Origin: an uncultured Dorea sp.
Lineage (GTDB): Bacteria > Bacillota > Clostridia > Lachnospirales > Lachnospiraceae
DNA: 20,053 nucleotides
Assembly (NCBI GenBank): GCA_934307335.1
Contig: CAKRCL010000030.1
Coordinates: 1-20,053 of the forward strand
Direction: 5' to 3'
Shown here one piece after another: positions 2,106 to 16,835 of this stretch; position 1 is the stretch's first letter; every line of letters begins with the position of its first letter. The notes beneath the pieces are model-generated. The model searched no databases and was not told the DNA's origin. It was given only the letters and a program-made list of their open reading frames with translations. The position numbers were made by a program, and so were the translations under genes.

Positions 2106-3608
2106 ATGGAAAAGGAAGTACAGAAAAAGCAGATCGAGGATATGTATAATGTGATCCGTGATGTGTTGAAAAACTGGTGGGTAATACTTTTTATCGCGAT
2201 ATCAGCGTCATTGCTTACTTATATTGCAGCAGCCTGGATGTATCATCCAACTTACACATCCAGCACGACATTTGTAGTATCAGCGAAGGGATCCAGTACG
2301 GGAGCGTATGCGAATAGAAGTCAGACGGAGAAGTTGACGGATACATTTCAGTCAGTCATGAACAGCCAGATCTTGAAAAAGAAAGTATCTGAAAGCCTGA
2401 AGATGGAGAGCTTTCCAGGAACGGTGACGATTGCAGTTGTGCCGGAGACGAATCTTTTGACGGTGTCTGTGACAAGTGATTCGCCGGAGATATCATTTAA
2501 ACTGTTGAAGAGTATGCTGGAGCATTACCAGGACGTATCGAAAAATGTGCTTGGTGAAGTGGTCATGGAAGTATTTGAGGAGCCCAATTTCCCGTCGGCA
2601 GCTGATGTTGCGTTCCGGGGCGGCAGTGTGATGAAGAAAGGGTTCCTGGCAGGAGCAGTCCTGATGATCGCGCTGCTGGCTCTTATGTCTTATCAGAAGG
2701 ATAATGTAAAGAGTGAGGAAGAAGTAACGGAGAAGTTGGATACAACGGTATTTGGTACATTGAATCATGAAGCGTCATACAGGAATTTAAAGGCCCGTCT
2801 AAAGAGGCAGAAGAAGAAAATACTGATTACAGAACCGGCGGTAAGTTTTGGGTTTGTCGAGACAATCAAGAAGATGCGTACCAAGCTTTTGTATTACCGG
2901 AGTAAGAATCAGGATAAGGTATTGCTTGTAACAAGTACGATGAAGAAGGAAGGCAAGACGATCGTAGCAGCCAATCTTGCGCTGGCTATGGCGCAGAGAG
3001 GCAAGAAGGTACTTTTGATCGAGGGAGATATGCGTAAGAGCGACCTTGCGTCTTTCTTAAATGTTGACGTACCGGAGGGGGCCGGTTTTTCGGAGCGGAT
3101 CGGGAATAATCTGGAGTCTCTGATATTCAAAATGCCGGACAAGTCGTTATATTTACTGCCGAATAATGTGATACATAAGCATTCAACGGAATTTCTGGGA
3201 TCGCAGAAATTTGACGAGTTCTTACAGAGGATGCGGGAGAAAATGGATTTTATCATTATCGACGGACCTGCGGCTAAGGGAAGAGCAGATGCGGAGGTTC
3301 TGGCGAGAAGAGCGGATTTTTCGCTTTTGGTCGTGAAGCAGAATTATACGAAAGTACCGTATATCAATGATACGATCGATATGCTGGATCGTTATGGACA
3401 CGGACTGGCAGGATGTGTATTTAACGATGTGCTCGTTGGCGGTGCGGTATTAAGTTCCGGCTACGGTTATGGATATGGCTACGGATATGGCTATGGAAAA
3501 TATCGCTATGGCAGATATCATGGCTATGGAAAGTATCATTCTTATTATTATAACCGGGCAGATGAGGAACAGGAAAAAGTATCACAGAAGGAAGAGGAGA
3601 CCAGATAA
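2106..3608 (+). CDS. Fused Wzz/BY-type tyrosine kinase with degenerate ATP site and long Tyr tail (A1)
   Basis: 500 residues. A Wzz-type chain-length region carries membrane segments near residues 23-45 and 175-195 and is followed by a cytoplasmic BY-kinase domain. The ATP motifs are off-consensus: Walker A is STMKKEGKTI (about 277-286), with KEGK in place of PGEGK and Ile after GKT; Walker A' is LLIEGDMRKSD (about 302-312), with Glu for the usual first Asp and no RxP; Walker B is FIIIDGPA. The C-terminal tail (about 451-484) has 14 tyrosines in GY repeats, the normal autophosphorylation cluster. The stop overlaps the next start by one base (TAATG), so A1 and A2 are translationally coupled. 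It may act more as a phosphorylated substrate or scaffold than as an efficient kinase; that part is inference. Confidence 0.88.
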   Translation: MEKEVQKKQIEDMYNVIRDVLKNWWVILFIAISASLLTYIAAAWMYHPTYTSSTTFVVSAKGSSTGAYANRSQTEKLTDTFQSVMNSQILKKKVSESLKMESFPGTVTIAVVPETNLLTVSVTSDSPEISFKLLKSMLEHYQDVSKNVLGEVVMEVFEEPNFPSAADVAFRGGSVMKKGFLAGAVLMIALLALMSYQKDNVKSEEEVTEKLDTTVFGTLNHEASYRNLKARLKRQKKKILITEPAVSFGFVETIKKMRTKLLYYRSKNQDKVLLVTSTMKKEGKTIVAANLALAMAQRGKKVLLIEGDMRKSDLASFLNVDVPEGAGFSERIGNNLESLIFKMPDKSLYLLPNNVIHKHSTEFLGSQKFDEFLQRMREKMDFIIIDGPAAKGRADAEVLARRADFSLLVVKQNYTKVPYINDTIDMLDRYGHGLAGCVFNDVLVGGAVLSSGYGYGYGYGYGYGKYRYGRYHGYGKYHSYYYNRADEEQEKVSQKEEETR

Positions 3609-4990
3609 TGGCAGATCAGGAAAAGGAAAAAAGCCAGGAAGCAGGGCTGATAGATATTACAGAAATCCTGTCGGATTATTTGCGCATTTTCCGCAGAATG
3701 TGGGCGTGGGTGCTGATTTTTACGATTCTCGGATCGGGATTCTTTTATATACGGGCGAGGGTTCAGTATCAGCCGGTCTATACGGCGTCGGCAACATTTA
3801 CAGTTAATATACAGAGAGAACAGCAGGGAATCACGGATACGGGTTCTACGTCGTTCTTTAATAACTCGGCAGCAGAGCAGATGGCGAAGACATTTCCATA
3901 TATCCTGACAAGCGGCGTGTTGAAAAGGAAGGTCGCGAAGGATATGGATGTTGCGGTCGTACCGGGAGTCATCAAGGCGACGGTTGCGGAGAATACGAAT
4001 CTTCTGACGATTTCGGTGACGGATCAGGATGCGGGAAGGGCGTATGCTACGTTAAAATCTGTTGAAGAAAATTATCCGGCGATCTCGGAAGTGATCGTTG
4101 GTAAGGTGAATATGGAAATGCTGGATGAGACGGGGATTCCGGCTCAGCCGGATAATCCGAAAGCGTTCAAGAAGAACGCGGTCAAAGGTGCGCTGGCAGG
4201 ATGTTTGCTCGTTATGCTCTGGACAGGGATTCTGGTAGTGACAAGGAGAACGATCCGAAAGGAATCGGATATCCATAGATGGATGAACACAAGATGTCTT
4301 GGAACGGTTCCGGAAGTGCATGAGAAGCGAAGATCAAAGTCAACGGCTATGCGTATGATCCTGACGGATCCGAAGATAGAGGAGAAGATGCAGGAGTCTT
4401 TCCGAATCATCCGAAATAAGATTGAGTACAATGCACAGGAATATCATATGAAGACATTTCTTGTCACAAGTGCGCTGGCAGGAGAAGGAAAAAGTACTGC
4501 GGCAGTGAATCTGGCACTCTCACTTGCGCAGGCTGGCCAGAGAGTCACGCTTGTAGACTGTGACTTGAGGCATCCGACGGACCGTCAGATACTCGGCGTG
4601 CAAGAGGATGGAGATGGACTTAGAGAGATATTGGAACGTAAGGCAAGGATGAAAGATTGTCTGATGGGAGCGAAGGAACTCGGACTTGAATCAACGATGC
4701 GTATCCGATTTCTTCCGGGAGGCAAGACGATCGGTGACGGTTCAGACCTTCTTGGAACAGAGTTGATGGGACGAATCATTAAGAGGCTGGAAGAGGTATC
4801 GGACTACGTGATCCTGGACAGTGCACCGGCCGGGCTTTTGACGGATGCAGTTGTGCTGGCACAATATGCAGACGGAGCAGTGTTCGTTGTCAGAAAGGAT
4901 TTTGCAAGAGTGGATTATATTATGGACGGAATGGAACATCTGGCAGAGAGTAATATACAGATCATCGGTGGAATCCTGAACGGAGTATAG
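3608..4990 (+). CDS. Fused Wzz/BY-type tyrosine kinase lacking a Tyr tail (A2)
   Basis: 460 residues with the same layout as its neighbour: a transmembrane segment near residues 34-52, a periplasm-like Wzz region, a second segment near 197-216, then a kinase domain. The ATP motifs are close to consensus: Walker A SALAGEGKSTAA (about 293-304), Walker A' TLVDCDLRHPT and Walker B YVILDSAP. The protein stops at GGILNGV, where relatives continue into a Tyr-rich tail, so it has no terminal tyrosine cluster. It starts inside the stop codon of A1. With A1 (poor ATP site, long tail) it forms a complementary pair. The missing tail could be natural or could reflect the repeat-rich element that begins 26 bp downstream. 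Confidence 0.88.
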   Translation: MADQEKEKSQEAGLIDITEILSDYLRIFRRMWAWVLIFTILGSGFFYIRARVQYQPVYTASATFTVNIQREQQGITDTGSTSFFNNSAAEQMAKTFPYILTSGVLKRKVAKDMDVAVVPGVIKATVAENTNLLTISVTDQDAGRAYATLKSVEENYPAISEVIVGKVNMEMLDETGIPAQPDNPKAFKKNAVKGALAGCLLVMLWTGILVVTRRTIRKESDIHRWMNTRCLGTVPEVHEKRRSKSTAMRMILTDPKIEEKMQESFRIIRNKIEYNAQEYHMKTFLVTSALAGEGKSTAAVNLALSLAQAGQRVTLVDCDLRHPTDRQILGVQEDGDGLREILERKARMKDCLMGAKELGLESTMRIRFLPGGKTIGDGSDLLGTELMGRIIKRLEEVSDYVILDSAPAGLLTDAVVLAQYADGAVFVVRKDFARVDYIMDGMEHLAESNIQIIGGILNGV

Positions 4991-5015: not shown

Positions 5016-5193
5016 AAAAGAGATAAAATGTAAGGGACCTTGATGGATCCCTTATATCAGCTGGGAGTCAATCCCCCAGCTGATATAGCCTCCGGCAGGA
5101 TTGCAGAGGTGCGCAGTAGAAGTATGTCATGCAATTGCATGACGCGCACCTCGCAGCAAGAATGCCGAGGCATTCTTGAATTTTATCTCTTTT
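5016..5193. repeat. Nested inverted-repeat element with four hairpins, bidirectional terminator or MITE-like
   Basis: The outer arms AAAAGAGATAAAA (5016-5028) and TTTTATCTCTTTT (5181-5193) are perfect 13-bp inverted repeats. Inside lie four more stems: TAAGGGA/TCCCTTA (5031-5054); a perfect 13-bp stem TATATCAGCTGGG/CCCAGCTGATATA (5053-5087); GAGGTGCGC/GCGCACCTC (5106-5152) enclosing the 18-bp palindrome GTCATGCAATTGCATGAC (5126-5143); and an 8-9 bp stem at 5158-5177. A hairpin followed by T-rich sequence occurs on each strand, so it can end transcription of both the kinase gene (+) and the LytTR gene (-), whose stop codon overlaps the right arm. The density and outer arms also suit a small non-autonomous mobile element. 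No obvious target duplication was seen. Confidence 0.7.
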
Positions 5194-5905
5194 AAGTTGA
5201 ACGTGATATCAGGAATTTGTTGAATAATTTGACAATGGAACTTCGCTTACGTAAGGTCAGAGGAATATTGTCATTGTTAGTCAGTTGGATCTCAGTGTCC
5301 CCGATATCCTGAATATAATTCATATTTACAAGATAGCTACGATAACAACGGATAAATGAAGTGTCATTTAACATGCTTTCGATGTGATTTAACGCCATGT
5401 TGGTTTCGAATGTTTTTGCAGCGGTATGTATCAAGCATTTTCTTCCGATACTTTCGATATAGAAAATCTCGGAAACCGGAATATGATACAACAGCCGGTT
5501 CGAATATACGTCCAGTGTAGGTGTTGAAGGAAAAATCGGAAGTACCAGTCTGGTAAAAACTTTTTCAAAGTGCTTTTCTGCGATGGGCTTCAAGAGGTAT
5601 CCTTCGACTCCCAGATTATAGCTTTCCAGACAATGTTCCGTACTTTTTGTAGTAAAGATGATTGTCGGAGGGGTCAGACCTTCTTTTAACTGTCTGGCAG
5701 TTTCAAGTCCATCGGTCCCCGGCATCAAAATCCCCAGAAAGATAAGCGAATAGCTTTTGGGAGATTTTAAAAGCGCATCTGTTGAAGTAAAGAAATCTAC
5801 ATTCAATAATGCGTGATTAAGCATGTACTTTTTAATATTGGCGTTCAAGAGTTCATTAATGTGTATTATGTCAGTATCATATCTATCGCAGATCGCTACA
5901 TTCAT
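5192..5905 (-). CDS. LytTR-family response regulator without the phospho-acceptor Asp
   Basis: 237 residues: a receiver-like domain (about 1-120) and a LytTR DNA-binding domain (about 140-235, with EIFYIESIGRKCLIH and FIRCYRSYLVNM). Such proteins are transcription regulators of the AgrA/ComE type. Where receivers carry the phosphorylated Asp (LIFLDI.MP), this one reads LIFLGILMPGTDG, with Gly58 encoded by GGG on the minus strand at 5732-5734. The acidic pair is also reduced (ICDR), while Thr85 and Lys106 are kept. It may therefore work without phosphorylation. No histidine kinase is adjacent. ATG at 5905 was chosen because AGGAGGG lies 5 nt upstream; the longer frame to 6148 is not needed. 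It diverges from the peptide cassette and is a candidate regulator of it. Confidence 0.88.
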   Translation of the reverse strand: MNVAICDRYDTDIIHINELLNANIKKYMLNHALLNVDFFTSTDALLKSPKSYSLIFLGILMPGTDGLETARQLKEGLTPPTIIFTTKSTEHCLESYNLGVEGYLLKPIAEKHFEKVFTRLVLPIFPSTPTLDVYSNRLLYHIPVSEIFYIESIGRKCLIHTAAKTFETNMALNHIESMLNDTSFIRCYRSYLVNMNYIQDIGDTEIQLTNNDNIPLTLRKRSSIVKLFNKFLISRST

Positions 5906-6098: not shown

Positions 6099-6548
6099 AT
6101 GAGGAAGATGAAGGTTGTAAATACAAGAGAATATGTCGGCATGCTCAAGGAACTGACAGAAGAAGGAAAAGAAGTCAGTATGATGATATTTGGAAGCAGT
6201 ATGGCACCATTTTTGATTCATGCAAGGGATATGATATATTTTAAAAAGCCGGACAGAAAACTAAAAAAAGGCGATATGGTATTTTTCCAGAGGGAAACAG
6301 GACAGTATGTCATGCACCGGATTTGGAAGATCCGCCCGGAAGGTTATTATATTGTAGGGGATGCGCAGACTCAGATAGAAGGTCCGGTGAAAAGAGAGCA
6401 GATCTTCGCGCTGATTACGAAAGTCCGGAGAAAAGAAAGATGGATGAAACCGGGAGATTTCTGGTGGGAATTTTTTGAACATGTATGGCTGCATATGATT
6501 CCGATCCGGCGGGCGGTTATGTGGTGTTATGGGAAGCTGGTAAAATGA
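6099..6548 (+). CDS. Soluble S24/S26-type peptidase (signal-peptidase-like), probable leader protease
   Basis: About 149 residues from ATG 6099 (MRKMKVVNTREYVGML). The start is uncertain: 6108 and 6045 are in frame and none has an ideal ribosome site. The catalytic serine block is VSMMIFGSSMAPF, matching GxSMxP of S24/S26 peptidases. The second block is QYVMHRIWKI, with His where bacterial type I signal peptidases use Lys, as in the SipW/eukaryotic-type branch, followed by YYIVGDAQTQ. There is no N-terminal membrane segment; the C-terminus (WWEFFEHVWLHMIPIRR) is aromatic and amphipathic and could touch the membrane. It precedes PqqD-like, kinase-like and exporter genes, so it plausibly trims the precursors at 9790 and 10506. 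A role as a SipW-like or LexA-like protease is the alternative. Confidence 0.78.
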   Translation: MRKMKVVNTREYVGMLKELTEEGKEVSMMIFGSSMAPFLIHARDMIYFKKPDRKLKKGDMVFFQRETGQYVMHRIWKIRPEGYYIVGDAQTQIEGPVKREQIFALITKVRRKERWMKPGDFWWEFFEHVWLHMIPIRRAVMWCYGKLVK

Positions 6549-6559
6549 AAAGTGGATAG

Positions 6560-6588
6560 TTGCGCATAGATACTAGCAATGCTATGAT
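6560..6588 (+). promoter_or_regulatory. Promoter before the PqqD-like gene
   Basis: TTGCGC (6560-6565), 17 nt, TATGAT (6583-6588), placing a start near 6595. The gene start at 6618 has AAGGAG (6603-6608) at 9 nt. Confidence 0.45.
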
Positions 6589-6617
6589 GGAACAATAAAA
6601 TCAAGGAGAAAAGTTAT

Positions 6618-6905
6618 ATGAAGATAGTTAAAGAATTTATATTGAGGGAAATCGCGGGTGAATGTGTACTGGTGCCGACAGGTGCAACTTCGCAGGAATT
6701 TAATGGAATGATCACGATCAGTGATACAGCCAAATTTATCTGGGAGAATATTGAAAAGGTGGATGGCCTGGAAGAGATGATCCAGATGGTGCTGGATACA
6801 TATGAGATTGATGAAGAGACTGCAAGAAGGGATACGATTGCTTTTGTCGGTGCTCTTGTGGAGAATGGCTTTATCGAGTGTACGAAGGAAGATGGGACAT
6901 GGTAG
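6618..6905 (+). CDS. PqqD-family peptide-recognition (RRE) protein
   Basis: 95 residues, the usual size for a stand-alone PqqD-type protein. Recognisable blocks are FILREIAGECVLVPTG (about 7-22), MITISDTAKFIWENIE (about 31-46) and a helical C-terminal half with ARRDTIAFVGALVENGFI. PqqD-type winged-helix domains are RiPP recognition elements: they bind the leader of a precursor peptide and present it to the modifying enzyme, here most likely the radical SAM protein at 10975. It has its own promoter and ribosome site. Its last codons overlap the start of the next gene by 7 nt, coupling it to the HPr-kinase-like protein. The same trio (S24/S26 protease, PqqD, HPrK-like) argues for a peptide maturation cassette rather than PQQ synthesis. 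Confidence 0.9.
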   Translation: MKIVKEFILREIAGECVLVPTGATSQEFNGMITISDTAKFIWENIEKVDGLEEMIQMVLDTYEIDEETARRDTIAFVGALVENGFIECTKEDGTW

Positions 6906-7816
6906 AACAACAAAATGAGGCAATCACCCGCCTGTACAGGATCGGACATACGGAGATTGAGATTACGGCTCCGTTATCTATGAAAAGTCCGCGGAATCTG
7001 GAAAAATTCCGGACCGGGCAGGCGAAGAGGCCGGATGAGGAAGTTATTCATTATCAGGTGGAGATGTCAGAAAGTATTGACGAGATTAAGGAAGCCCTTT
7101 TGGAGAGAAAGACGGGAAGGGTGATCTATCGGGATAATCTTATGGTGTTTCAGACAGCCGAAGGAGAATGTCGTTTTATTAATTTCCTTGGGATGGACTG
7201 GCACTATGCAGTCAGCAGTCAGGAGGGTGTGAATCAGTATCGTGTCTGGTTTTCCTCGGAAGTGGCAGAGATGCTTGATCAGGATACGGTGTATCTGGCA
7301 GCATTTTCATTGGAGAAGCAGGCGATGAAGGATCATGCGATGATTCTGCATTCTGCGTATATGTGTTATAAAGATACGGCTGTACTTTTTTCTGCGCCGT
7401 CAGAGACGGGAAAATCTACGCAGGCTGACTTGTGGGAAAAGTACCGTGGAACATGGACGGTGAATGGGGATCGTTCTCTTTTGATCCGTGAAGAAGATGG
7501 ATGGTATGCGAATGGATGGCCGGTGTGCGGAAGTTCAGAGATTTGTAATAATAAGTCTTATCCGATCAGAGCTATTGTTATGCTGTCGCAGGCGGAAGAG
7601 AATCGTATCAGCCGCCTGAAAGGGTTTGAGGCTTTGCGGAAAGTAATGGAACAGATTACGATCAATGGCTGGAACAGTGAGTTCCAGATACAGGCGATGG
7701 ATGAGCTGGAAATCTTGCTGCGGGAGATCCCGGTATATCATCTGGAATGTAACATTTCCGAAGATGCGGTCAGATGCCTGGAAAATGTACTTGCCGATGG
7801 ACGAGGAGAAGAATAG
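6899..7816 (+). CDS. HPr kinase/PEP carboxykinase-like P-loop protein
   Basis: 305 residues from ATG 6899, which has AAGGA upstream and overlaps the PqqD gene; the in-frame ATG at 6878 is less likely. The C-terminal half resembles HPr kinase: a His in ILHSAYM (about 150), a P-loop APSETGKSTQADLW (about 165-178) and an acidic block NGDRSLL (about 188-194), with NGWPVCGSSEI after it. The N-terminal 130 residues are not recognised. Relatives occur in RiPP loci; in some lasso peptide clusters an HPrK-like enzyme phosphorylates the peptide, and SynChlorMet cassettes pair a PqqD-like and an HPrK-like protein with radical SAM enzymes. A role as kinase or ATP-driven helper acting on the precursors is therefore plausible but unproven. 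Stop and next start are adjacent (TAGATG). Confidence 0.82.
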   Translation: MVEQQNEAITRLYRIGHTEIEITAPLSMKSPRNLEKFRTGQAKRPDEEVIHYQVEMSESIDEIKEALLERKTGRVIYRDNLMVFQTAEGECRFINFLGMDWHYAVSSQEGVNQYRVWFSSEVAEMLDQDTVYLAAFSLEKQAMKDHAMILHSAYMCYKDTAVLFSAPSETGKSTQADLWEKYRGTWTVNGDRSLLIREEDGWYANGWPVCGSSEICNNKSYPIRAIVMLSQAEENRISRLKGFEALRKVMEQITINGWNSEFQIQAMDELEILLREIPVYHLECNISEDAVRCLENVLADGRGEE

Positions 7817-9613
7817 ATGCAAGAAAGTAATGATAAAAATCAAGGGAAGAACGGACTGTCTTTTGAGTCTTTGGACATTCTGATCGGCAGGTGGAAAGAT
7901 GGAACATTTTCAGAGATCATTGATGACTGGAAATGGATATTCAGCTATAGTATCCGTTATAAATGGGCCATTGTATTCTATACATTTTTGGGTATCTTCA
8001 GTACATCTATGGGGCTGGTCAGCAGTGTGGCGGGTAAATATCTGATTGATATTATCACCGGATATAAGACGAACAAATTGGTGATCCTGATTGTTGTTAT
8101 GGTAGGAAGTTCGTTGTTTAGTCTTCTGTTTAGCAGTATTATCAGTCGAATCTCGACAAAATTAAGCATTTATATCAATAATGATATTCAGGCGGATATA
8201 TTTGACAAGATCGTGGATGCCGACTGGCTGGAAATTAATAAGTATTCTAACGGAGATGTGTTGAACCGATTCAATGGAGATATCGGAACGGTCAGTAGTA
8301 ATGCAATCAGCTGGCTTCCGACAATCGTAATCGCAATCTATAATTTCATAGCAACATTTCTTGTTATTTTTCATTATAATGCGATCATGGCAGTTCTGGC
8401 GCTGGCAAGTGCACCGTTCATGCTTCTGATGTCGAGATTTATGATTAAGAAGCAGCGGGAATATAGTCAGAAGACCAGAGAAATGAGCAGTAAGCTGATG
8501 ACATTTGAGGTGGAAGCCTTTTACAATTTTGATACCATCAAATCATTTGGTATTGCGCCGCATTACAGCCGTAAGATGCGCTGGTGGCAGAGCCAGTTCA
8601 AAGATGTCAGTCTGGAATACAATATGTTCTCTATTAAGACGAATATTCTGTTGTCGGTTATGGGATCCGCTGTGGAATTTATTGCATTTGGATATTGTCT
8701 GTTCCTGTTGTGGACACATGCGATCACTTATGGAACGATGACATTGTTCCTGCAACAGAGGAGTAACCTGTCTGGGGCGTTCAATAATGTGGTATCGATC
8801 ATTCCGTCATTTTTGAATAGTTCGGTGTCAGCACACAGAATCCGTGAGCTGGTAGAGCTTCCGAAAGAGGTACATATCAGTGAGAGTGAGGAACTTGATC
8901 CATATGCAGAGGATGGATTTAAGGTGTTGATGAAAGATGTGAATTTCTCTTATATAGAAGGAACAAGAGTGATTACAGATTCGTATTTTAAAGCCTGCCC
9001 GGGTGAAATCGTGGCACTTGTGGGACCTTCGGGAGAAGGAAAGACGACGATGATCCGTCTGATTCTGGGACTGATCCGTCCGCAGGAAGGAGAGGCTGTG
9101 ATCGTTGCATCCAATGGAAGAGAGATCATCCTGAATGCGGAGACGAGACATTTCTTCGCCTACGTACCTCAGGGAAATACGATCCTTTCCGGTACAATTG
9201 CGGAGAATATGCGGATGGTCAAAGAGGATGCTACGGATGAAGAGATTATCGAGGCTTTAAAAATCGCATGCGCATGGGATTTTGTGGAAAAACTGCCGGG
9301 TACGATCAACAGAGCGCTTGGAGAGCGTGGACAAGGACTTTCGGAAGGACAGGCACAGCGTATCTCTATCGCGCGAGCGGTTCTTCGTAATGCGCCGATT
9401 CTTCTGTTGGACGAGGCGACATCGGCACTGGATGTAACGACGGAACGCAAGGTGCTGCGTAATATTATCGAGCAGAAGCCGAACAAGACTTGTATTGTGA
9501 CAACACACAGACCAAGTGTGTTGAATATGTGCCAGAGGGTGTACCGTGTTATGGAGACGAAGGTTACGGAATTGGACGAGGAAGAATCAAGCCGGATGGC
9601 GATGGATTTCTAA
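7817..9613 (+). CDS. ABC exporter (fused membrane and ATPase domains)
   Basis: 598 residues: an ABC exporter transmembrane domain (about 45-335) and an ATPase domain with Walker A GPSGEGKTT (about 402-410), Q-loop AYVPQGN, signature LSEGQAQR (about 507-514; LSEGQ for the common LSGGQ), Walker B ILLLDEATSALD and switch His in TTHRPS. It lacks an N-terminal C39 peptidase domain, so any leader cleavage must come from another protein, most simply the S24/S26-type peptidase at 6099. The start directly follows the stop of the kinase-like gene. It is the likely exporter of the products encoded at 9790 and 10506. About 50 N-terminal residues (LSFESLDILIGRWKDGTF) precede the first membrane helix and might contact the precursor. 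Confidence 0.92.
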   Translation: MQESNDKNQGKNGLSFESLDILIGRWKDGTFSEIIDDWKWIFSYSIRYKWAIVFYTFLGIFSTSMGLVSSVAGKYLIDIITGYKTNKLVILIVVMVGSSLFSLLFSSIISRISTKLSIYINNDIQADIFDKIVDADWLEINKYSNGDVLNRFNGDIGTVSSNAISWLPTIVIAIYNFIATFLVIFHYNAIMAVLALASAPFMLLMSRFMIKKQREYSQKTREMSSKLMTFEVEAFYNFDTIKSFGIAPHYSRKMRWWQSQFKDVSLEYNMFSIKTNILLSVMGSAVEFIAFGYCLFLLWTHAITYGTMTLFLQQRSNLSGAFNNVVSIIPSFLNSSVSAHRIRELVELPKEVHISESEELDPYAEDGFKVLMKDVNFSYIEGTRVITDSYFKACPGEIVALVGPSGEGKTTMIRLILGLIRPQEGEAVIVASNGREIILNAETRHFFAYVPQGNTILSGTIAENMRMVKEDATDEEIIEALKIACAWDFVEKLPGTINRALGERGQGLSEGQAQRISIARAVLRNAPILLLDEATSALDVTTERKVLRNIIEQKPNKTCIVTTHRPSVLNMCQRVYRVMETKVTELDEEESSRMAMDF

Positions 9614-9660
9614 TTAGAACGAGTAATTATTAGTAGAATGTGCATAATCACGCATAAAAG

Positions 9661-9703
9661 TGTAATAAAACGACGTGAAATGACAGGAAAAAAGGATTGA
9701 AAA
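9661..9703 (+). promoter_or_regulatory. Conserved upstream element, copy A
   Basis: A 43-bp stretch ending in the -35 box; 36 of 43 positions match 10308-10350. It contains two GAC-containing half-sites 10 bp apart (GACGTGAAAT then GACAGGAAAA). This looks like an activator or repressor site shared by the two precursor genes. Confidence 0.6.
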
Positions 9704-9725
9704 CGCTGAGAGATGAGATTATACT
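9697..9725 (+). promoter_or_regulatory. Promoter of precursor A
   Basis: TTGAAA (9697-9702), 17 nt, TATACT (9720-9725); the predicted leader is about 58 nt. AAGGAG (9775-9780) lies 9 nt before ATG 9790. Confidence 0.65.
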
Positions 9726-9789
9726 AGAAAGTAATAGGACAACTAGGAATATGTAAAAGTATACATAGAGGACGAAGGAGTGCGTGAAT

Positions 9790-10194
9790 ATGAAAAAAGA
9801 ATATGTAACACCTACAATGACGGGAGAGAGATTTAGTGCGGATGAGTATGTAGCAGCCTGTGTTACAGGAATAATCCAGTGTGCTTACCCTGGAGATTCA
9901 CCGAATGCACAAGATGATGGAACCAAGACATATATTGATGCGGCTGGAATGTGGCATGGATCATGCGGAGAAGATGCATCGATTTCGTTTAATGATGGTA
10001 CAGGAAAAGGTTATGAAATGCGAAATGGGAAAATAGATTATAATCGTCCGATTTCTCACATAACAGGATATACATTGGAACCAGGTACATACACAAATGT
10101 TTCATGGGAAAGTACGGATGGAGCAGGCACTTATCAGCACAAAGGACGTCTCAAAATTACGAATATTGACAACAATCGTCCAAACCACTCATAA
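9790..10194 (+). CDS. Large RiPP-like precursor protein A (EYVAAC leader family)
   Basis: 134 residues from ATG 9790 (the GTG at 9784 is only 3 nt from the ribosome site). The first 24 residues share 18 identities with the gene at 10506, in blocks MKKEYV, PTM, GERF and EYVAAC; beyond residue 24 the two diverge strongly, a leader/core pattern. The rest is polar and rich in Gly, Asp, Asn and Thr, with three cysteines (24, 31, 59) and local matches to precursor B around WHGSCGEDAS and GKIDYNR. There is no signal peptide or membrane segment, so export would need the ABC exporter just upstream. VAAC resembles a signal-peptidase AXA site. It is unusually long for a RiPP precursor; a small exported protein with a short targeting sequence is an alternative. 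I do not recognise a named family. Confidence 0.75.
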   Translation: MKKEYVTPTMTGERFSADEYVAACVTGIIQCAYPGDSPNAQDDGTKTYIDAAGMWHGSCGEDASISFNDGTGKGYEMRNGKIDYNRPISHITGYTLEPGTYTNVSWESTDGAGTYQHKGRLKITNIDNNRPNHS

Positions 10195-10212
10195 AATAGG
10201 CGAAGAGTTACA

Positions 10213-10242
10213 CGGTCAGCTAAATATAGTTGGCCGCTTTTT
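10213..10242 (+). terminator. Rho-independent terminator after precursor A
   Basis: CGGTCAGCTA (10213-10222) pairs with TAGTTGGCCG (10227-10236), with two G-T pairs and an AATA loop, followed by CTTTTT. It isolates precursor A from precursor B. Confidence 0.75.
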
Positions 10243-10307
10243 CTATGAAAAAATGCTCCACGAGCTTTGTGTTTTTTAATTGAAATATTGGCAGAAGTAT
10301 ACAATGA

Positions 10308-10350
10308 TGTAATAAAAGGACATCAAATGACAAGTAAACAGTATTGAAAA
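10308..10350 (+). promoter_or_regulatory. Conserved upstream element, copy B
   Basis: Matches 9661-9703 at 36 of 43 positions with no gaps, and lies at the same offset from TTGAAA. Half-sites GACATCAAAT and GACAAGTAAA are again 10 bp apart. The flanking sequences are otherwise dissimilar, which points to functional conservation. Confidence 0.6.
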
Positions 10351-10372
10351 TATTAAAAAATATAGTTATAAT
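10344..10372 (+). promoter_or_regulatory. Promoter P1 of precursor B
   Basis: TTGAAA (10344-10349), 17 nt, TATAAT (10367-10372), a near-consensus sigma-A promoter joined to copy B of the shared element. Confidence 0.65.
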
Positions 10373-10414
10373 TATAAATAATAAGAATTATCTATAACAA
10401 TAAGGATTTTAGTA

Positions 10415-10443
10415 TTGAATTTAGCATTAGACTTTTATATAAT
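10415..10443 (+). promoter_or_regulatory. Possible promoter P2 of precursor B
   Basis: TTGAAT (10415-10420), 17 nt, TATAAT (10438-10443), 71 bp below P1 and without the shared element. In such AT-rich sequence a chance match is possible. Confidence 0.4.
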
Positions 10444-10505
10444 AGAGTAATATAGACAGAGGGTTATGGATAACAAGAGTAAAATAATAAAAGGAGTGTA
10501 TAAGT

Positions 10506-10895
10506 ATGAAGAGGGCGTATGTTAGACCTACTATGGTAGGCGAAAGATTTGTAGCTAATGAGTATGTGGCAGCTTGTGGCGAAGAGAATAAAGTGTTTAA
10601 GTTTAAGTGTGATGCTCCACGCGGACAGTTATACTATTACCCATCATTTGATGGAACAATTGATGGAGTACATACAGAAACTGACAGAGCACGTTGGATA
10701 GGTAGTTATCATCCATGTAATGAAAAGCATGAGGCAAGTACTACAAGTGATTTCTATGATGGATTTGTAGATTATAACCGTAATGGAAGACAGGATGCGG
10801 GAGAAGGAGTTATTGTCTGGCGTGGAAAGTGGAACAATAATGGTCATGCAACTACAAACCTTAAGATGGACACCTGGGAGACTGCAAAATCATAA
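10506..10895 (+). CDS. Large RiPP-like precursor protein B with EF-hand-like loop
   Basis: 129 residues; ATG 10506 lies 9 nt after AAGGAG, the same spacing as precursor A. The N-terminal block is MKRAYV, PTM, GERF, ANEYVAAC. The remainder differs from precursor A but keeps three cysteines (24, 35, 71), an aromatic-rich stretch (QLYYYPSF), SYHPCNEKHEAS and a DYNR motif. Residues 89-100 read DYNRNGRQDAGE, which places D, N, N, G, D and E at loop positions 1, 3, 5, 6, 9 and 12 of an EF-hand/dockerin-type calcium site; only the hydrophobic position 8 is off. There is no signal peptide or membrane segment. It lies between precursor A and the radical SAM gene and ends at a strong terminator. Function is unknown; a modified or calcium-bound secreted product is inferred. 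Confidence 0.75.
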   Translation: MKRAYVRPTMVGERFVANEYVAACGEENKVFKFKCDAPRGQLYYYPSFDGTIDGVHTETDRARWIGSYHPCNEKHEASTTSDFYDGFVDYNRNGRQDAGEGVIVWRGKWNNNGHATTNLKMDTWETAKS

Positions 10896-10917
10896 AACAA
10901 ACATATATACATATAAA

Positions 10918-10944
10918 AAAGAACCGGATTTCCGGTTCTTTTTT
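10918..10944 (+). terminator. Rho-independent terminator between precursor B and the radical SAM gene
   Basis: GAACCGG (10921-10927) and CCGGTTC (10932-10938) form a GC-rich stem extended by A-T pairs, followed by a T-run to 10944. Only 30 bp separate it from the radical SAM start and no clear promoter is visible there. Partial read-through would give abundant precursor and little enzyme. Confidence 0.85.
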
Positions 10945-10974
10945 AAAATCTACAGGAATTGTTGAGGGTGTAAT

Positions 10975-12081
10975 ATGGAATTAATGGAAGATGGAACGAC
11001 AATAGAGCAACAGATGTTTGCAATGGCGACAGAGAAGAAAGTGCCGCTATATGGAGTGTTGGAGTTGCTGCCTCTTTGTAATCTGAACTGTGATATGTGT
11101 TATGTGCGTATGAGCAGAGAAGAGATGGAACAGGTGGGAAGGCTGCGCACGATGGAAGAATGGACGAAAACGGTAGAAGATATGATGAGAGCCGGGACGC
11201 TGTTTGTTCTTTTGACAGGTGGAGAGCCGCTGCTGTATCCACATTTCCGCGAGTTATATCAAAAACTCCGTGAACTGGGGATGATTATTACGATTAACAC
11301 GAATGGAACGCTGATCGATGAGGCGTGGGCAGATTTTTTTGCGGAAAATAAACCAAGAAGAATCAATATTACATTATATGGTGCAAGCAATGAGACCTAT
11401 GAGCGTTTGTGCCATTATCCGGGAGGATTCGATAAGGCGGTGAACGGCATCCGGCTTTTGCGGGAGAGGAACATTGATGTGAAAGTGAATGGAAGTCTTG
11501 CAAAGGCGAATGTGGAGGACAGGATGAAGATCATAGAGCTTGGTGAATCTCTGGATGCTCCGGTGAGGATTGATACTTATATGTATCCGTCTGTGAGAGA
11601 ACGAAATCATGCGTATAATAATCAGGCCAGACTGGATCCGGAGATGGCGGCAAAAGCAAGAGTGGAAATTTTGCAAAGAGAGATGGGAGAAGAAGTATTT
11701 GCCCAATACCGCAAGATCCGATTAGACGAAGCAGAGAATACTCCGGAAGGAGAGGCAGTTCCGGGACAGATGGCATGTCGTGCCGGTAAGAGTTCTTTTG
11801 TGGTGAACTGGCAGGGCGAGATGCGCTCCTGTGTGGTACTGGATAAGCCAAGTATACCGCTTCGGGATGTGGAGTTTGAGGAAGCGTGGGAGCTTACGAA
11901 AAAAGAAACGGAGAGTCTTAGAATTTCGGCCAGATGCAGTAGCTGTAAGCTTAGAAAGGTATGTAACACTTGTGTGGCAGCGGCAATTGCGGAGACCGGA
12001 AAGGCAGACGGCGTACCGGAATATTTGTGCAGATACACAGAAGCAACGGTCAGATATCTGAAGGAGACAATGGAAGAATAG
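10975..12081 (+). CDS. Radical SAM/SPASM peptide-modifying enzyme
   Basis: 368 residues. The radical SAM iron-sulfur site is C35-x3-C39-x2-C42 (CNLNCDMC), followed by TGGEPLLYP and NTNGTLID, typical of S-adenosylmethionine binding. The C-terminal SPASM-type region has cysteines at 268, 286, 321, 324, 330, 333 and about 352 (CRAG, RSC, CSSCKLRKVCNTC, LC), expected to hold auxiliary iron-sulfur clusters. Enzymes of this group modify ribosomal peptides by radical chemistry such as thioether or C-C crosslinks or epimerisation. With the PqqD-like protein at 6618 it is probably the maturase for the precursors at 9790 and 10506. The start at 10975 has GAGGG upstream. The exact chemistry cannot be read from sequence, and an alternative substrate outside the window is possible. 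Confidence 0.9.
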   Translation: MELMEDGTTIEQQMFAMATEKKVPLYGVLELLPLCNLNCDMCYVRMSREEMEQVGRLRTMEEWTKTVEDMMRAGTLFVLLTGGEPLLYPHFRELYQKLRELGMIITINTNGTLIDEAWADFFAENKPRRINITLYGASNETYERLCHYPGGFDKAVNGIRLLRERNIDVKVNGSLAKANVEDRMKIIELGESLDAPVRIDTYMYPSVRERNHAYNNQARLDPEMAAKARVEILQREMGEEVFAQYRKIRLDEAENTPEGEAVPGQMACRAGKSSFVVNWQGEMRSCVVLDKPSIPLRDVEFEEAWELTKKETESLRISARCSSCKLRKVCNTCVAAAIAETGKADGVPEYLCRYTEATVRYLKETMEE

Positions 12082-12156: not shown

Positions 12157-12912
12157 ATGATAGATATACATGCACATATACTTCCGGGGATTGATGACGG
12201 GGCTGAAGATCTGTATGATACGCTGGAGATGGCACAGATGGCTGTAGACAGTGGAGTGGACAAGATTATAGCGACCCCGCATTGCAATATTCCGGGAATG
12301 TATGGGAATTATTTTGGAAAAGAATACATTGACAAGTATGAAAGCGTAGTCAGAGCGATAAGAGAAGAGAATATTCCAATCGAGATACTTCCGGGAATGG
12401 AAGTATTTTCAACAGAAGATCTGCCGGATCTGATCGTGGATCACAAGATCATGCCGCTGAATCAGAGCAGATATATATTGATGGAATTTTCGTTTGACGA
12501 GGATCCGGAATTTGCAGATCTTATTTTGAAGAGAGTGGCAGCGGTCGGCGCGAAGCCGGTAATCGCACATGCGGAGAGATATGAATTTATACAGGATTAT
12601 CCGCAGATTGCATATCGCTGGTATAAGAGAGGATATGTGATCCAGGCGAATAAGGGAAGCTTTCTTGGAAGGTTTGGGAGTATGGCAAAGCGTACGGCAG
12701 ACAGTCTGCTTCGCCATAATCTGATCATGGCGATCGCAAGTGATGCGCACAGTCCGCTTCAGAGAACTCCCTATATGTTGGATACGTATGATGAGCTGAG
12801 CCGGGAATATTCAGAGAAGCATCTGGATGTGTTGTTTCAATATAATCCGGCAAGGATTTGTGATAACAGAGAGATCTTGAGATTAGAACCGGTTCCGTAT
12901 TCTGGACGGTAA
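12157..12912 (+). CDS. CpsB/YwqE-like PHP-domain protein tyrosine phosphatase
   Basis: 251 residues, the family's usual size. Metal ligands of the PHP fold are visible: HAH (H5, H7) in MIDIHAHILPGIDDGA, H42 in ATPH, Glu in LPGMEVF, H in IAHAERY and D196/H198 in ASDAHS. CpsB/CapC/YwqE enzymes are manganese-dependent phosphatases that remove phosphate from the Tyr tail of BY-kinases and so set the phosphorylation cycle controlling capsule or exopolysaccharide assembly. It heads the second module, where the kinases B1 and B2 are its expected substrates; A1 at 2106 could be another, since module A lacks a phosphatase of this type. The ribosome site is AAAGGA. Confidence 0.93.
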   Translation: MIDIHAHILPGIDDGAEDLYDTLEMAQMAVDSGVDKIIATPHCNIPGMYGNYFGKEYIDKYESVVRAIREENIPIEILPGMEVFSTEDLPDLIVDHKIMPLNQSRYILMEFSFDEDPEFADLILKRVAAVGAKPVIAHAERYEFIQDYPQIAYRWYKRGYVIQANKGSFLGRFGSMAKRTADSLLRHNLIMAIASDAHSPLQRTPYMLDTYDELSREYSEKHLDVLFQYNPARICDNREILRLEPVPYSGR

Positions 12913-12942: not shown

Positions 12943-13827
12943 ATGAGGAGACTAAAGATAGCAGTATGCCTGATATTCGTAGTATCTTGTGCTATATTTG
13001 CCGGATATACTGTGAAGTCTAAAATGTTGGAAGATCATACACCACCGGTGATTACTTGTAAGGAAGATTCGGTAACGTTGAGTGTGCAGACGGATCAACA
13101 AGAGCAAAAAGAAGCACTTTTAAAAGGAGTAAAGGCAAAAGATAACCGAGATGGTAATCTGACATCGTCTATCCGTATCGCTTCTATGTCACATTTTATT
13201 GCACCGGGTAAACGAACGATCACATATGTCGTATTTGATAAGGCAAATCAAGTAGGAACACTGGAAAGAACGGTGCAGTATAGTGACTATACGTCACCAA
13301 AGATTCATTTGACGGAACCGCTTCGATATTCGATGACAGAAGTGGCGAAGACAAAATTAACGGAGAATATGACAGCGGAAGATTGTCTGGATGGCGATCT
13401 GACAAGCCAGATCCGGACAAGTCTTACGGATAGTGTATATAATATGGCAGCAGGTAACTATGGTGTGACTGTGCAGGTGAGCAATAGCGCAGGTGACGTG
13501 TGTGCGATACCGATGGAGCTTACGATAACAGACTCCAGTGACAGACAGGAACAGGCAAAGCAGTACCCGCTGTTGTCTGAGTATATTGTATATACAACCG
13601 TTGGAAATGCAATCGATCCGATGGCTTATATAAAAGGTCTGGAGAGAAATGGCACAGAATATACGTATGAAAATGATGGACAGCTGCTGGAAGGAACGAT
13701 GGAAGGTATCGGTGTCGCTTCAGCGGTAGATTATTCACAGGCAGGTGTTTATACGATCGAGTACTCTTATACAGCTGAGGGAGCTCCGACTGCTGTGACG
13801 AAGTTATATGTTGTAGTACAGAACTAG
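12943..13827 (+). CDS. DUF5011/Ig-like anchored extracellular protein (module B)
   Basis: 294 residues, paralogous to the protein at 1274-2071. It has an N-terminal hydrophobic segment (about 5-22), then Ig-like repeats: PPVITCKEDSVTLSV, KAKDNRDGNLTSSI, KRTITYVVFDKANQVG, and DCLDGDLTSQI with NYGVTVQVSNSAGD. The C-terminal third (LSEYIVYTTVGNAIDPMAYI onward) also matches its paralogue (LKDYLIYLPVGASFDPNEYY). It carries a longer first-domain linker (QTDQQEQKEALLKG) than the A copy. The position between the phosphatase and the kinase pair implies an extracellular partner of the polysaccharide assembly complex. AAAGGAG precedes the ATG. A biochemical function is not known to me. Confidence 0.8.
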   Translation: MRRLKIAVCLIFVVSCAIFAGYTVKSKMLEDHTPPVITCKEDSVTLSVQTDQQEQKEALLKGVKAKDNRDGNLTSSIRIASMSHFIAPGKRTITYVVFDKANQVGTLERTVQYSDYTSPKIHLTEPLRYSMTEVAKTKLTENMTAEDCLDGDLTSQIRTSLTDSVYNMAAGNYGVTVQVSNSAGDVCAIPMELTITDSSDRQEQAKQYPLLSEYIVYTTVGNAIDPMAYIKGLERNGTEYTYENDGQLLEGTMEGIGVASAVDYSQAGVYTIEYSYTAEGAPTAVTKLYVVVQN

Positions 13828-13839
13828 GGGGAGTACAGG

Positions 13840-15288
13840 ATGGAAATGAACAATAAAAATGATATGCCGGTATTTATAGATAATGACCTGGAACCGTATA
13901 CCCTCCTGCATGATATCATTTGTAATTGGTGGGTGATCGTTCTGGGGGCAATTGCAGGTGCTCTTTTGACTTATGTAGTTGTGAGCAGCCGATATGTTCC
14001 GGAATATACAACACAGGCGACATTTGTGGTAGCGTCCAAAGATGATGCGAATGCATACAGCAATCTTAATTCGGCTAATGAGATGGCGAAAAGATTTGAA
14101 AAGATTTTAAAGAGTAATATTATGGAGAAAAAGATCTGTGAGGAGTTGAAGGTAGAAGAACTTAATGCAGATATTCATGCGAAGGTATTGGAAGGTACCA
14201 ATATGCTGGTGCTGAATGTGACGACAGATACTCCGAAGAATTCGATTGATATTATCCGCACGATTATGGATAACTATAGCAGTGTATCGTTATATACGGT
14301 CGGAAGTGCAGTTATGGATGTACTGGAGGAACCGAAGGTTCCTTATATGCCGGATAATGCGCTGAATGCCGGTGAAGAGGCAAAGAAAGGCGGGCTTGCA
14401 GCGGGAGCGCTTATTATCCTGCTGTTGGGACTTATTTCTTATACACGGGATACTATTAAACAGGAGAATGAGGTTGAGAAGAAACTCGACGCAAAAAGTC
14501 TTGGAGCTATCAGCTATGAGTGGAAATATAAGACGGTTCGAGAGCTGCTCCAGCATAAGAATAGAGCAATTCTGGTGGATGACCCGGTAGCGAGCTTCCG
14601 ATTTGTGGAAAGCTATAAGAAGCTGGCGGCGAAAGTAGACTACCGAATGGCCAAAGAGGATCGAAAAGTTCTGGTGATCACCAGTGTGTCGGAGAATGAA
14701 GGTAAATCAACAGTAGCAGCCAACCTTGCGATTACATTGGCAGAGCAGTCAAAAAAAGTACTTTTGATAGACGGAGATATCCGAAGACCTTCACAATTCT
14801 TGATCCTTGGGATGGAGCCTAAGGATGAAAATGAACTGGGAGAGTATCTGAAGGGAAATGGAACGTTCAAAGATATTATTATGACATGTCCTAGAAAGCA
14901 TATGCTGTTCATAGGAGGAAAGAACTGTTATTCTACATCGACAGAATTGCTGAGTTCAGATTCATTTTCAAAATTGGTGAAGACATGCAGAAAAATGGTG
15001 GATTATATAATTATTGATACACCACCGATAGGATTAATCGGAGACGCACAGTTATTTGCACATTATGCAGATGCCGTTATGATCATTGCAAGACAGAATT
15101 ATATGCTTGCTGAGGATATCAATGAAGCAATAGATGATTTCCGCGATGATGGTAGTAAAGTTCTTGGAGTTGCACTTAACGGAGTAAGGACATTTTCAGG
15201 GCTGGCGGACAGTCCGGTAGGTCATTACTATGGAAAATACAACAAATATGGTCGCTATGGCAATTATGGAAAGAGTAAAGGAATGTAA
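13840..15288 (+). CDS. Fused Wzz/BY-type tyrosine kinase (B1)
   Basis: 482 residues: a membrane segment near 28-48, a short Wzz-type region, a second segment near 182-202 (GGLAAGALIILLLGLISY), then a BY-kinase domain. The ATP motifs are canonical: SVSENEGKSTVAANLA (Walker A), LLIDGDIRRPS (Walker A') and YIIIDTPP (Walker B). The C-terminal tail HYYGKYNKYGRYGNYG has six tyrosines. It is the counterpart of A1, which shares the MKKG/AKKGG lead into the second membrane segment but has a degenerate ATP site and a longer tail. BY-kinases control polymer length and export through cycles of Tyr-tail phosphorylation. It begins 13 bp after the DUF5011-like gene with GGGGGAG as ribosome site. Confidence 0.9.
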   Translation: MEMNNKNDMPVFIDNDLEPYTLLHDIICNWWVIVLGAIAGALLTYVVVSSRYVPEYTTQATFVVASKDDANAYSNLNSANEMAKRFEKILKSNIMEKKICEELKVEELNADIHAKVLEGTNMLVLNVTTDTPKNSIDIIRTIMDNYSSVSLYTVGSAVMDVLEEPKVPYMPDNALNAGEEAKKGGLAAGALIILLLGLISYTRDTIKQENEVEKKLDAKSLGAISYEWKYKTVRELLQHKNRAILVDDPVASFRFVESYKKLAAKVDYRMAKEDRKVLVITSVSENEGKSTVAANLAITLAEQSKKVLLIDGDIRRPSQFLILGMEPKDENELGEYLKGNGTFKDIIMTCPRKHMLFIGGKNCYSTSTELLSSDSFSKLVKTCRKMVDYIIIDTPPIGLIGDAQLFAHYADAVMIIARQNYMLAEDINEAIDDFRDDGSKVLGVALNGVRTFSGLADSPVGHYYGKYNKYGRYGNYGKSKGM

Positions 15289-15293
15289 GGTAT

Positions 15294-16835
15294 ATGGGTG
15301 ATTATAGAGACAAATCAGGAAGAGAACATGTGGATGCGCCCGAGAAGATTGATCTGACCAATATTATGTTGGATGTGTATCATGGAGTGAAGAAACTGTG
15401 GTGGTTGATCATCGGGCTTATCGTTTTTTGTGCAGTGCAGTCTTATTTCTCGGTCAGTACCAGTTATCAGTCAAACTATGTAGCTTCAGCCACGGTTTCT
15501 GTGACATCGGTTGGAGGAATGGATTACGTGAATGCACAGTCTGCGCAGCAGATGGCAGAAGTATTTCCATATATTCTTACAAGTGGTGTACTAAAGGATG
15601 TGGTTGCGGAAGATATGGGACTGGATTCCATGCCGGGCAATATCACTGTTGAAGCGGATGAAGGGACGAATCTTCTGACGATATCGGTGTCCGGAAATGA
15701 TCCGCAGATGGCATATGAAACATTGAAATCTGTAATAGAAAATTATCCAAAGGTTGCAGAATTTGTTTTTGGTGAAACGAAACTTACTATTTTAGATGAA
15801 ACAGGAATCCCGACAGATACAAAGCGTGCAGAAGTCATTCGTGGTTCTTACAAGCGAGGAGCTCTGAAAGGGGCGATCATAGGTTGTGTGATCTTGCTCA
15901 TTTATGTATTGTCAAGAAGAACTGTAAAATCGAAAAAAGAGTTAAAGAAAAATATTAATTTGCCGGATCTTGGAAGTATTCCGCATATCCGCACAAAGAA
16001 GCGTAAAAAAGAGACATTTCATAATTCGGTCAGTTTGTTAAATGAACGAATTCCGATGAGTTATCTGGAAGCGGTGAGAAAGCTTAGGATCCGTATCATG
16101 AAGGAGATGGAGACGAAGGGATATCATACATTACTTGTTACCAGTTCCATTCCGGGAGAAGGAAAGACGACGCTTTCAGCAAATTTGGCAATTGCCATTG
16201 CACAGCAGGGCAAGAAAGTACTTTTGATTGATTGTGACTTAAGAAATCCTTCTGTTGCAGGGGTAATGAACGAGCAGGAAGAGCATCCGGGACTTGGAGC
16301 AGTTCTGAAAAAAGAAGTCCCTTTATTAAAAGCGCTGAAGAATGTAGAACTTCCAAAGGAACGGACCAACGAAAAAGGAAAGCTGCATGTTATGTTTGGC
16401 GGACCGGCAGATGGAGACGGTGCCATGATGATCGGAAGCAAACGAATGCAGGCATTGATCCGTGCTTTGAATTCTAAATATGATATTATTATCCTGGATA
16501 CAGCGCCATCAGAACTTCTGGCAGATGCGCCGTTGCTGGCAAAGTATGTGGATGCGGCTTTATATGTTATTCGCAATGATTATACAAAGCTTCGAGAAAT
16601 CCGTGAAGGTGTGGAAAGCCTGGCATTAAGTGGTGTTCATATGATGGGATTTGTATTTAATGGAGATAATTCATCCAGTAAACATGGTTATGGTTACGGA
16701 TATGGCTATAAGCGTTATGGAAGTTATGGCGGTTATGGTTATGGCAAGCATTATGGAAAATATGGTTCTTATGGACATTATGGGACAGCGGAAAAAGGGT
16801 CGACAGACAATAGTGGCCGTGTGATTAAGGAATAA
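15294..16835 (+). CDS. Fused Wzz/BY-type tyrosine kinase with long Tyr tail (B2)
   Basis: 513 residues: a membrane segment near 36-54, a Wzz-like region resembling A2 (AEVFPYILTSGVLKDVV, EGTNLLTISV), a second segment near 190-206 and a kinase domain with Walker A SSIPGEGKTTLSANLA, Walker A' LLIDCDLRNPS and Walker B IIILDTAP, all canonical. The tail (about 463-497) has 12 tyrosines in GY repeats and then a charged end. It is the module B counterpart of A2, which lacks the tail. B1 and B2 are 5 bp apart with UAAGG near the start. Two different fused kinases per module suggest hetero-oligomers with shared phosphorylation, which is inference. Confidence 0.9.
   Translation: MGDYRDKSGREHVDAPEKIDLTNIMLDVYHGVKKLWWLIIGLIVFCAVQSYFSVSTSYQSNYVASATVSVTSVGGMDYVNAQSAQQMAEVFPYILTSGVLKDVVAEDMGLDSMPGNITVEADEGTNLLTISVSGNDPQMAYETLKSVIENYPKVAEFVFGETKLTILDETGIPTDTKRAEVIRGSYKRGALKGAIIGCVILLIYVLSRRTVKSKKELKKNINLPDLGSIPHIRTKKRKKETFHNSVSLLNERIPMSYLEAVRKLRIRIMKEMETKGYHTLLVTSSIPGEGKTTLSANLAIAIAQQGKKVLLIDCDLRNPSVAGVMNEQEEHPGLGAVLKKEVPLLKALKNVELPKERTNEKGKLHVMFGGPADGDGAMMIGSKRMQALIRALNSKYDIIILDTAPSELLADAPLLAKYVDAALYVIRNDYTKLREIREGVESLALSGVHMMGFVFNGDNSSSKHGYGYGYGYKRYGSYGGYGYGKHYGKYGSYGHYGTAEKGSTDNSGRVIKE

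Follow-up and report, generated by a model that had tools for sequence, protein, structure and literature searches.

A 20,053-nucleotide stretch of DNA from an uncultured Dorea sp. (contig CAKRCL010000030.1 of assembly GCA_934307335.1; hereafter the window) contains seven genes, all on the + strand between positions 6099 and 12081, which code, in this order, for an S26-type protease, a PqqD protein, an HPrK-related protein, an ATP-binding cassette (ABC) exporter, two precursors and a radical S-adenosylmethionine (SAM)/SPASM enzyme. Judging from gene content and sequence comparison, this cassette probably constitutes a system of the ribosomally synthesized and post-translationally modified peptide (RiPP) type, with a chassis resembling that of phosphorylated lasso peptides, in which a radical SAM enzyme and an S26 protease would replace the lasso enzymes and the cores would be protein-sized (80–140 residues). 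An earlier note on this DNA had placed seven genes on one strand, all of which are present there, and had considered their combination to lie outside any RiPP class it could name; neither a description of the cassette nor a named class with this set was found in the literature, of which the coverage was partial (few subscription papers and no bioRxiv), making this weak evidence of absence. To that note we add two points. Precursors encoded beside the HPrK-like gene have a conserved C-terminal serine, a feature indicative of phosphorylated lasso peptides, and the cassette has an exopolysaccharide neighbourhood.

In the two precursors, leader and body behave as separate modules. Precursor 1 (9790..10194, +; 134 aa from an ATG at 9790, or 136 aa from a GTG at 9784; leader ...SADEYVAA/C, the slash marking the leader end; C-terminal PNHS; 31 homologs) and precursor 2 (10506..10895, +; 129 aa; leader ...VANEYVAA/C; C-terminal TAKS; 742 homologs) have leaders 79% identical over 19 residues and bodies 25% identical, which agrees with the two 129–134-residue paralogs with a common N-terminus described before. 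Among 23 window-type precursors from 18 loci (253 pairs), leader identity is 0.52 (shuffled 0.18) and body identity 0.24 (shuffled 0.12), and in 105 of the 253 pairs body identity falls below 20% yet leader identity is still 49%. The leader carries a [YW]xxPx(hydrophobic) motif and terminates in [ND][EQ][YF][VI][AS]x/C, with the end being YVAA/C in 14 of the 23 precursors examined, a set that includes the fragment L020 and leaves out precursor 1 of the window, which also has YVAA/C. Bodies span 80–140 residues, and those of the precursor-2 family share invariant Cys, His, Trp and Gly residues. This is the arrangement by which RiPP precursors are recognised, that is, short genes with a conserved leader and a variable body beside a RiPP recognition element (RRE) and a modifying enzyme. 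In lasso leaders, YxxPxL is the RRE-binding motif. One study of lasso leaders discusses this conserved motif and reports that double and triple changes left phosphorylation unaffected and that only the triple change hindered leader cleavage (PMC10368454). Neither precursor belongs to a family in Pfam, NCBIfam or PHROGs, and their relatives gave only two chance-level Pfam matches; in the PDB, the precursor profile matched saxiphilin (E 0.012), which was set aside as chance.

The gene set recurs in other genomes, which rules out a chance assembly. The precursor-2 profile has matches in nine of 299 genomes of one family, that of genome G001, and an orthologous HPrK-like gene is present in all nine of these and in one (G210) of the 290 negative genomes (Fisher 2e-16), a test free of HPrK selection bias, both searches having drawn 299 same-family genomes with the same handles as far as listed. 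The 14 precursor-profile matches in the 299 genomes, two of them in one gene and merged, define 13 distinct loci, and PqqD and/or radical SAM genes lie beside 11 of them, the exceptions being the orphan L023 and the 52-aa fragment L020. Wide occurrence of the precursors without such neighbours, which had been named beforehand as counting against the proposal, is thus not seen, and the comparison supports the earlier view that the cassette matures and exports large products of ribosomal origin. With the HPrK-like profile, matches below 1e-100 were found at 11 places in 10 of the 299 genomes (next best match 2e-62), in G001 only in a class-wide draw of 391 genomes (looser relatives, with E up to 1e-15, in 109/391) and in 1/1, 1/3, 3/7 and 3/3 genomes in searches by genus; a larger family draw gave HPrK-like matches at E up to 1e-80 in 13 of 397 genomes. 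We annotated 73 loci (the window, L016–L027, L086–L105 and L107–L146), most of them chosen via the HPrK search, so that counts of HPrK adjacency in this set are biased. Carriage by phages or plasmids was considered and rejected, as tblastn of precursor 2 found no match in phage and plasmid collections and none was confirmed in viral contigs. L001 (6576–7435) holds a decayed cassette, in which a PqqD remnant lies beside a precursor whose reading frame continues into the C-terminal portion of a radical SAM enzyme.

Ser is the C-terminal residue of 42 of the 45 precursors collected by the leader pattern, against 48 of 761 control open reading frames (ORFs) that are complete, at least 150 aa long and from the same loci (binomial 5e-47, a test that treats related sequences as independent). 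These 45 remain from 53 matches after eight antisense or unrelated ORFs, one of which ends in Ser, were removed by hand (L018 1886, L025 1426, L089 2076, L094 9012, L121 11069, L122 3393, L125 98 and L136 518), and they take in the Ser-ended 52-aa fragment L020, without which the count is 41/44. Among the matches listed, C-terminal Ser is present in 118 of 120 homologs of precursor 2 and in 27 of 31 of precursor 1; a separate 85-aa precursor family also ends in Ser in 118 of 120 homologs among the matches listed, where the terminal residue is conspicuous against a mean column conservation of 0.65. In two reports, HPr-kinase homologs are described as phosphorylating lasso precursors at the C-terminal Ser, with few further demands on the substrate, and PsmN as attaching a hexose to that phosphate (PMC8498205, PMC9266682). 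A nucleotidyltransferase of the PF14907 type lies within 6 kb of 13 of the 23 window-type precursors (two PF14907 calls were confirmed by Pfam, the others by our own profile). We also observed a shorter Ser- or Thr-ended precursor family in L092, L093, L094, L095, L099, L100 and L102, downstream of large secreted-looking proteins (1,178–2,680 aa where the ORF is listed) with C termini such as SLFGRWFK, KIFGWLFR, SLFGRR and NKWFASR.

The protease (6099..6548, +) matches the signal peptidase I model TIGR02228 below its cut-off (E 5.7e-7; 29.5 bits against 51.85) and has no Pfam match; of its former description as an S24/S26-type Ser/His protease, the S26 assignment and the Ser and His motifs stand, and S24 does not. 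SipW/Sec11-type signal peptidases are Ser-His enzymes with SxMxP, HR and GD motifs, and all three are present here (S60 M61 P63, H99 R100 and D114, counted from a TTG at 6021) and kept in all 17 relatives with a score of 215 bits or more. In contrast to those enzymes, the cassette protein has no transmembrane segment that could anchor it (highest 19-residue hydropathy 1.02), and its gene belongs to a RiPP-like cassette. Since the motifs are kept and a membrane segment is lacking, cleavage inside the cell, before or during export, seems likelier than cleavage by a membrane signal peptidase. The PqqD protein (6618..6905, +; PF05402 E 1.4e-15), recognised as such from the start, also has a sub-cutoff match to lasso_PqqD_Bac NF033536 (E 6.2e-7), and the exporter (7817..9613, +) is MsbA-like (PF00664 and PF00005; TIGR02204 E 6.3e-71, sub-cutoff) and, as had been noted, lacks a C39 domain.

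For the radical SAM/SPASM enzyme (10975..12081, +), the proposed body-modifying enzyme, the earlier assignment is confirmed by PF04055 (E 1.7e-27) and by a CX3CX2C motif and seven SPASM cysteines, conserved in all 20 aligned relatives with a score of 500 bits or more; the SPASM family PF13186 is matched weakly (16.5 of 21.5 bits), and the 25 best-scoring NCBIfam models listed all stay below cut-off. L017 and L127 each encode two precursors with unlike bodies; every one of these precursors is accompanied by a PqqD and a radical SAM gene of its own, and the pair shares one HPrK-like, one ABC and one S26 gene. This layout fits a radical SAM enzyme that works on the body and shared enzymes that work on the ends common to both precursors; the window has a single radical SAM gene, which would serve both of its precursors.

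The HPrK-like gene (6899..7816, +; ATG start at 6899, GTG at 6878 in the ORF list), which would encode the kinase of the C-terminal Ser, matches TIGR04249 (ScmC) below its cut-off (E 1.5e-6; 27.8 of 125 bits), as do eight of eight orthologs (best 9.4e-11), three of which also match TIGR04352. Neither PF07475 (HPr kinase) nor any other Pfam family matched the window protein, PF07475 matched none of the eight orthologs, and one ortholog has a weak match to PEPCK, a family related to HPrK. The earlier HPrK-like label is borne out by these sub-cutoff and weak matches and by a weak hhalign match given below, and the protein is of the P-loop type. TIGR04249, the best NCBIfam model of this protein, belongs to the SynChlorMet cassette (ScmC/D/E/F), which likewise combines HPrK-like, PqqD-like and radical SAM/SPASM proteins; however, all cassette matches fall far below the NCBIfam cut-offs that define membership, TIGR04250 scoring 82.2 of 400 bits. 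Neither an S26 protease nor this precursor family is known to be part of the SynChlorMet cassette.

A close parallel in parts is offered by the phosphorylated lasso peptides of Firmicutes (paeninodin, pseudomycoidin), which share with the cassette a YxxP-type leader motif, a stand-alone PqqD-like RRE, an HPrK homolog, a C-terminal Ser, an ABC exporter and often a nucleotidyltransferase. The differences are the B2 protease and the cyclase, in whose place S26 and radical SAM proteins are found, the replacement of one catalytic Asp by Gly, and cores of 80–140 residues. Lasso cores measure about 20 residues. That of BsfA has 21 (PMC10368454).

From the identity and recurrence of the genes and the conservation of leader, Ser and motifs, we infer a series of reactions, their order and a role at the cell surface. 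PqqD would bind the leader via the [YW]xxPx(hydrophobic) motif, by analogy with lasso B1 proteins, and the radical SAM/SPASM enzyme would modify the large Cys/His/Trp-containing body, possibly, as a guess, by cross-links at the conserved Cys. The HPrK-like protein would phosphorylate the C-terminal Ser, and the phosphate might be further decorated where a PF14907 nucleotidyltransferase is present, which is not the case in the window. Finally, the soluble S26-type protease would cut EYVAA/C, and the ABC exporter would release a product of about 106–111 residues with Cys as the first residue. Such a scheme predicts a soluble signal-peptidase-like RiPP leader peptidase, an HPrK-like enzyme that targets the C-terminal Ser of peptides other than lasso peptides, and an operon link between RiPPs and exopolysaccharide, in a group of gut-bacterial peptide systems with protein-sized cores (742 precursor-2 homologs) for which we found no description.

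Several observations weigh against this scheme, most of them concerning the kinase. The hhalign comparison with eight true HPrK proteins was weak (probability 16.9%, E 0.0015), with the P-loops aligned and five unrelated control families scoring 0.096 or worse, and the protein has no PDB match. Lasso kinases are reported to require a His-Lys-Asp-Asp set (PMC9266682). The His, the P-loop Lys and one Asp are invariant in all 73 HPrK-like proteins; next to that Asp, 65 of them have Gly, seven Asp and one Asn, with NGD in 21 of 21 members of the window's clade; the cassette protein hence lacks the complete set of a ThcoK/PadeK-type lasso tailoring kinase, the correspondence of these positions to the published Asp pair being placed by alignment alone. 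The enzyme may use other chemistry or be inactive. Moreover, the published HPrK-like RiPP kinase BsfK is reported to modify Ser3, in a precursor whose C-terminal residue is Asp (PMC10368454). Three of the 45 leader-pattern precursors end otherwise (L025 in Trp, L099 in Thr and L130 15977 in Val), and 12 candidates outside the pattern, picked by eye beside distant HPrK-like genes, end in Ser in four cases and in another residue in eight (L101 S, L118 L, L133 A, L137 N and D, L140 S, L142 S, L143 S, L145 F, L146 V, K and K), so that Ser-ended precursors, the substrates expected of ThcoK/PadeK-type kinases, number 42/45 by leader pattern and 46/57 with these included. Seven of the 12 are the visible candidate precursors of the NDD proteins (L132, L137, L141 and L143–L146), and one of these seven ends in Ser. 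With only four Ser ends in 12, the final Ser is a mark of the window's clade and of the HPrK-like genes closer to it rather than of HPrK-like genes at large. Beyond the kinase, an S26 gene lies within 6 kb of 15 and an ABC gene of 17 of the 23 window-type precursors (some contigs are cut), a nucleotidyltransferase is absent from the window, and the conserved bodies could work unmodified.

Small ORFs without a YxxP leader, encoded beside the HPrK-like genes of L119–L125, L135 and L136, end in Ser in none of nine cases; most have GFTGQGW-like segments, PqqD and radical SAM genes adjoin them, and they are mostly near exopolysaccharide genes. In a midpoint-rooted tree of the 73 HPrK-like proteins, in which several supports are low, these loci and others form a clade apart from the Ser-precursor loci, an observation in favour of the proposed scheme. 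In L137, L143, L145 and L146, NDD HPrK-like genes adjoin very short YxxP-led ORFs, possibly another peptide class.

The cassette sits between two exopolysaccharide-like gene sets. Downstream are a CpsB/CapC-type phosphatase (12157..12912, +; PF19567 E 4.3e-58) and, at 12943..17790 (+), an Ig-like protein (PF16403 E 1.7e-14), a Wzz/BY-kinase-like pair and an LCP transferase (PF03816 E 4.5e-34); the Wzz/BY-kinase label was read from the sequence, and relatives have PF02706 matches at the same position. Upstream, at 1274..4990 (+), a second Ig-like protein and Wzz/BY-kinase-like pair, themselves seeds of the profiles they match, resemble the downstream set, and L026 shows the same layout of Ig-like and Wzz/BY-kinase-like genes on both flanks (window 1274–4990 and 12943–16835). 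Ten of 20 orthologous HPrK copies, from 17 genomes, have a Wzz match no more than 10 kb away, where Wzz footprints would predict 1.2% (binomial 1e-14; eight of the 44 Wzz matches are below the family cut-off); the remaining ten include two whose Wzz match is 11 and 16 kb away, and several that are on short contigs. Wzz/BY-kinase-like genes are present in 27 of the 73 loci. A rumen survey lists Butyrivibrio lasso clusters with HPr kinase, nucleotidyltransferase, glycosyltransferase and EpsH (PMC7533575). This context suggests a role at the cell surface. A bolder and rather improbable extension is that the ribosomal peptides are coupled to exopolysaccharide, with the HPrK-like protein placing a phosphate on the C-terminal Ser and either the PF14907 nucleotidyltransferase or the LCP transferase encoded in the adjacent operon joining it to a glycan to give a peptide-decorated coat; if true, this would be a phosphodiester route attaching protein to a glycopolymer.

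The same neighbourhood also favours the strongest alternative, dedicated secretion of small folded surface or exopolysaccharide-associated proteins by way of leader, PqqD, S26 and ABC proteins, with the radical SAM enzyme installing a redox or metal feature and the Ser being an unphosphorylated recognition tag. Bodies of 80–140 residues, the invariant Cys, His, Trp and Gly of the precursor-2 family, the missing residue of the His-Lys-Asp-Asp set and the pairing of the HPrK-like proteins that retain it with mostly non-Ser precursors all fit this explanation. On the other hand, the kinase-like gene is the closest co-occurring marker among those tested, and one HPrK-like clade pairs with non-Ser ORFs. 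Because the candidates picked by eye weaken the tie between HPrK-like genes and the final Ser, we lowered our confidence in the phosphorylated RiPP-type system and raised it for folded-protein secretion, which we regard as a tentative, less probable explanation.

Upstream of each precursor lies one copy of a 79-nt direct repeat, the copies being 71% identical and 647 nt apart (copy 1 at 9661..9739, +, with promoter-like TTGAAA, 17 nt, TATACT; copy 2 at 10308..10386, +, with TTGAAA, 17 nt, TATAAT), and a terminator-like hairpin follows precursor 1 (10213..10236, +); promoter-like sites in the region number 13, against 6.5 expected. Locus L107, 83–89% identical to the window over matched cassette stretches, has a single precursor, upstream of which the DNA matches copy 1 on the left (97.6%, 85 nt) and copy 2 on the right (97.3%, 183 nt), as if a precursor had been lost or gained by crossing over between repeats. 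Four database proteins (P0146, P0149, P0150 and P0151) carry the leader of precursor 1 on other bodies; they fit the same exchange or could be assembly errors.

Such exchange, together with the SPASM radical SAM enzyme, the conserved Cys and an adjoining regulator, would also suit a large radical-SAM bacteriocin, LytTR-regulated and similar to sactipeptides or ranthipeptides, for which the HPrK-like protein would give self-protection or activation. The regulator, of the LytTR response type (5192..5905, −; PF04397 E 3.7e-19, PF00072 E 1.2e-10), is divergent from the cassette and probably controls it, with close homologs in L107, L108 and L087 and weaker matches in L122 and L136. With sactipeptides and further RiPPs made by SPASM radical SAM enzymes (such as Ruminococcin C) the cassette has in common the enzyme type, a conserved precursor Cys and an origin in gut Clostridia, but its cores are much larger than is usual for that class, and the HPrK-like protein, the separate S26 protease and the C-terminal Ser set the cassette apart. 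As no immunity gene was recognised among the scanned genes, as none of the 25 top NCBIfam matches listed for the radical SAM enzyme attains the cut-off and as no NCBIfam model matches the precursors, we hold a bacteriocin to be doubtful. A true lasso cluster with unrecognised protease and cyclase, although similar in the types of leader motif, RRE, kinase-like protein, nucleotidyltransferase and exporter, is highly improbable and already disfavoured, as neither a B2 transglutaminase-like protease nor an asparagine-synthetase-like cyclase was found among the seven cassette proteins (Pfam and listed NCBIfam matches) and the core begins with Cys and exceeds 100 residues.

Near the cassette, four loci each encode a protein of some 800 aa whose C terminus looks like a LuxR-type DNA-binding domain (L017 14886–17360, L021 1938–4289, L104 4237–6729 and L127 16608–18965). 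In the window, neither a tRNA nor an Rfam match exceeding the gathering score was found, and at its right end, at 18493–19869, a 458-aa membrane protein reads like a sodium-dependent transporter.

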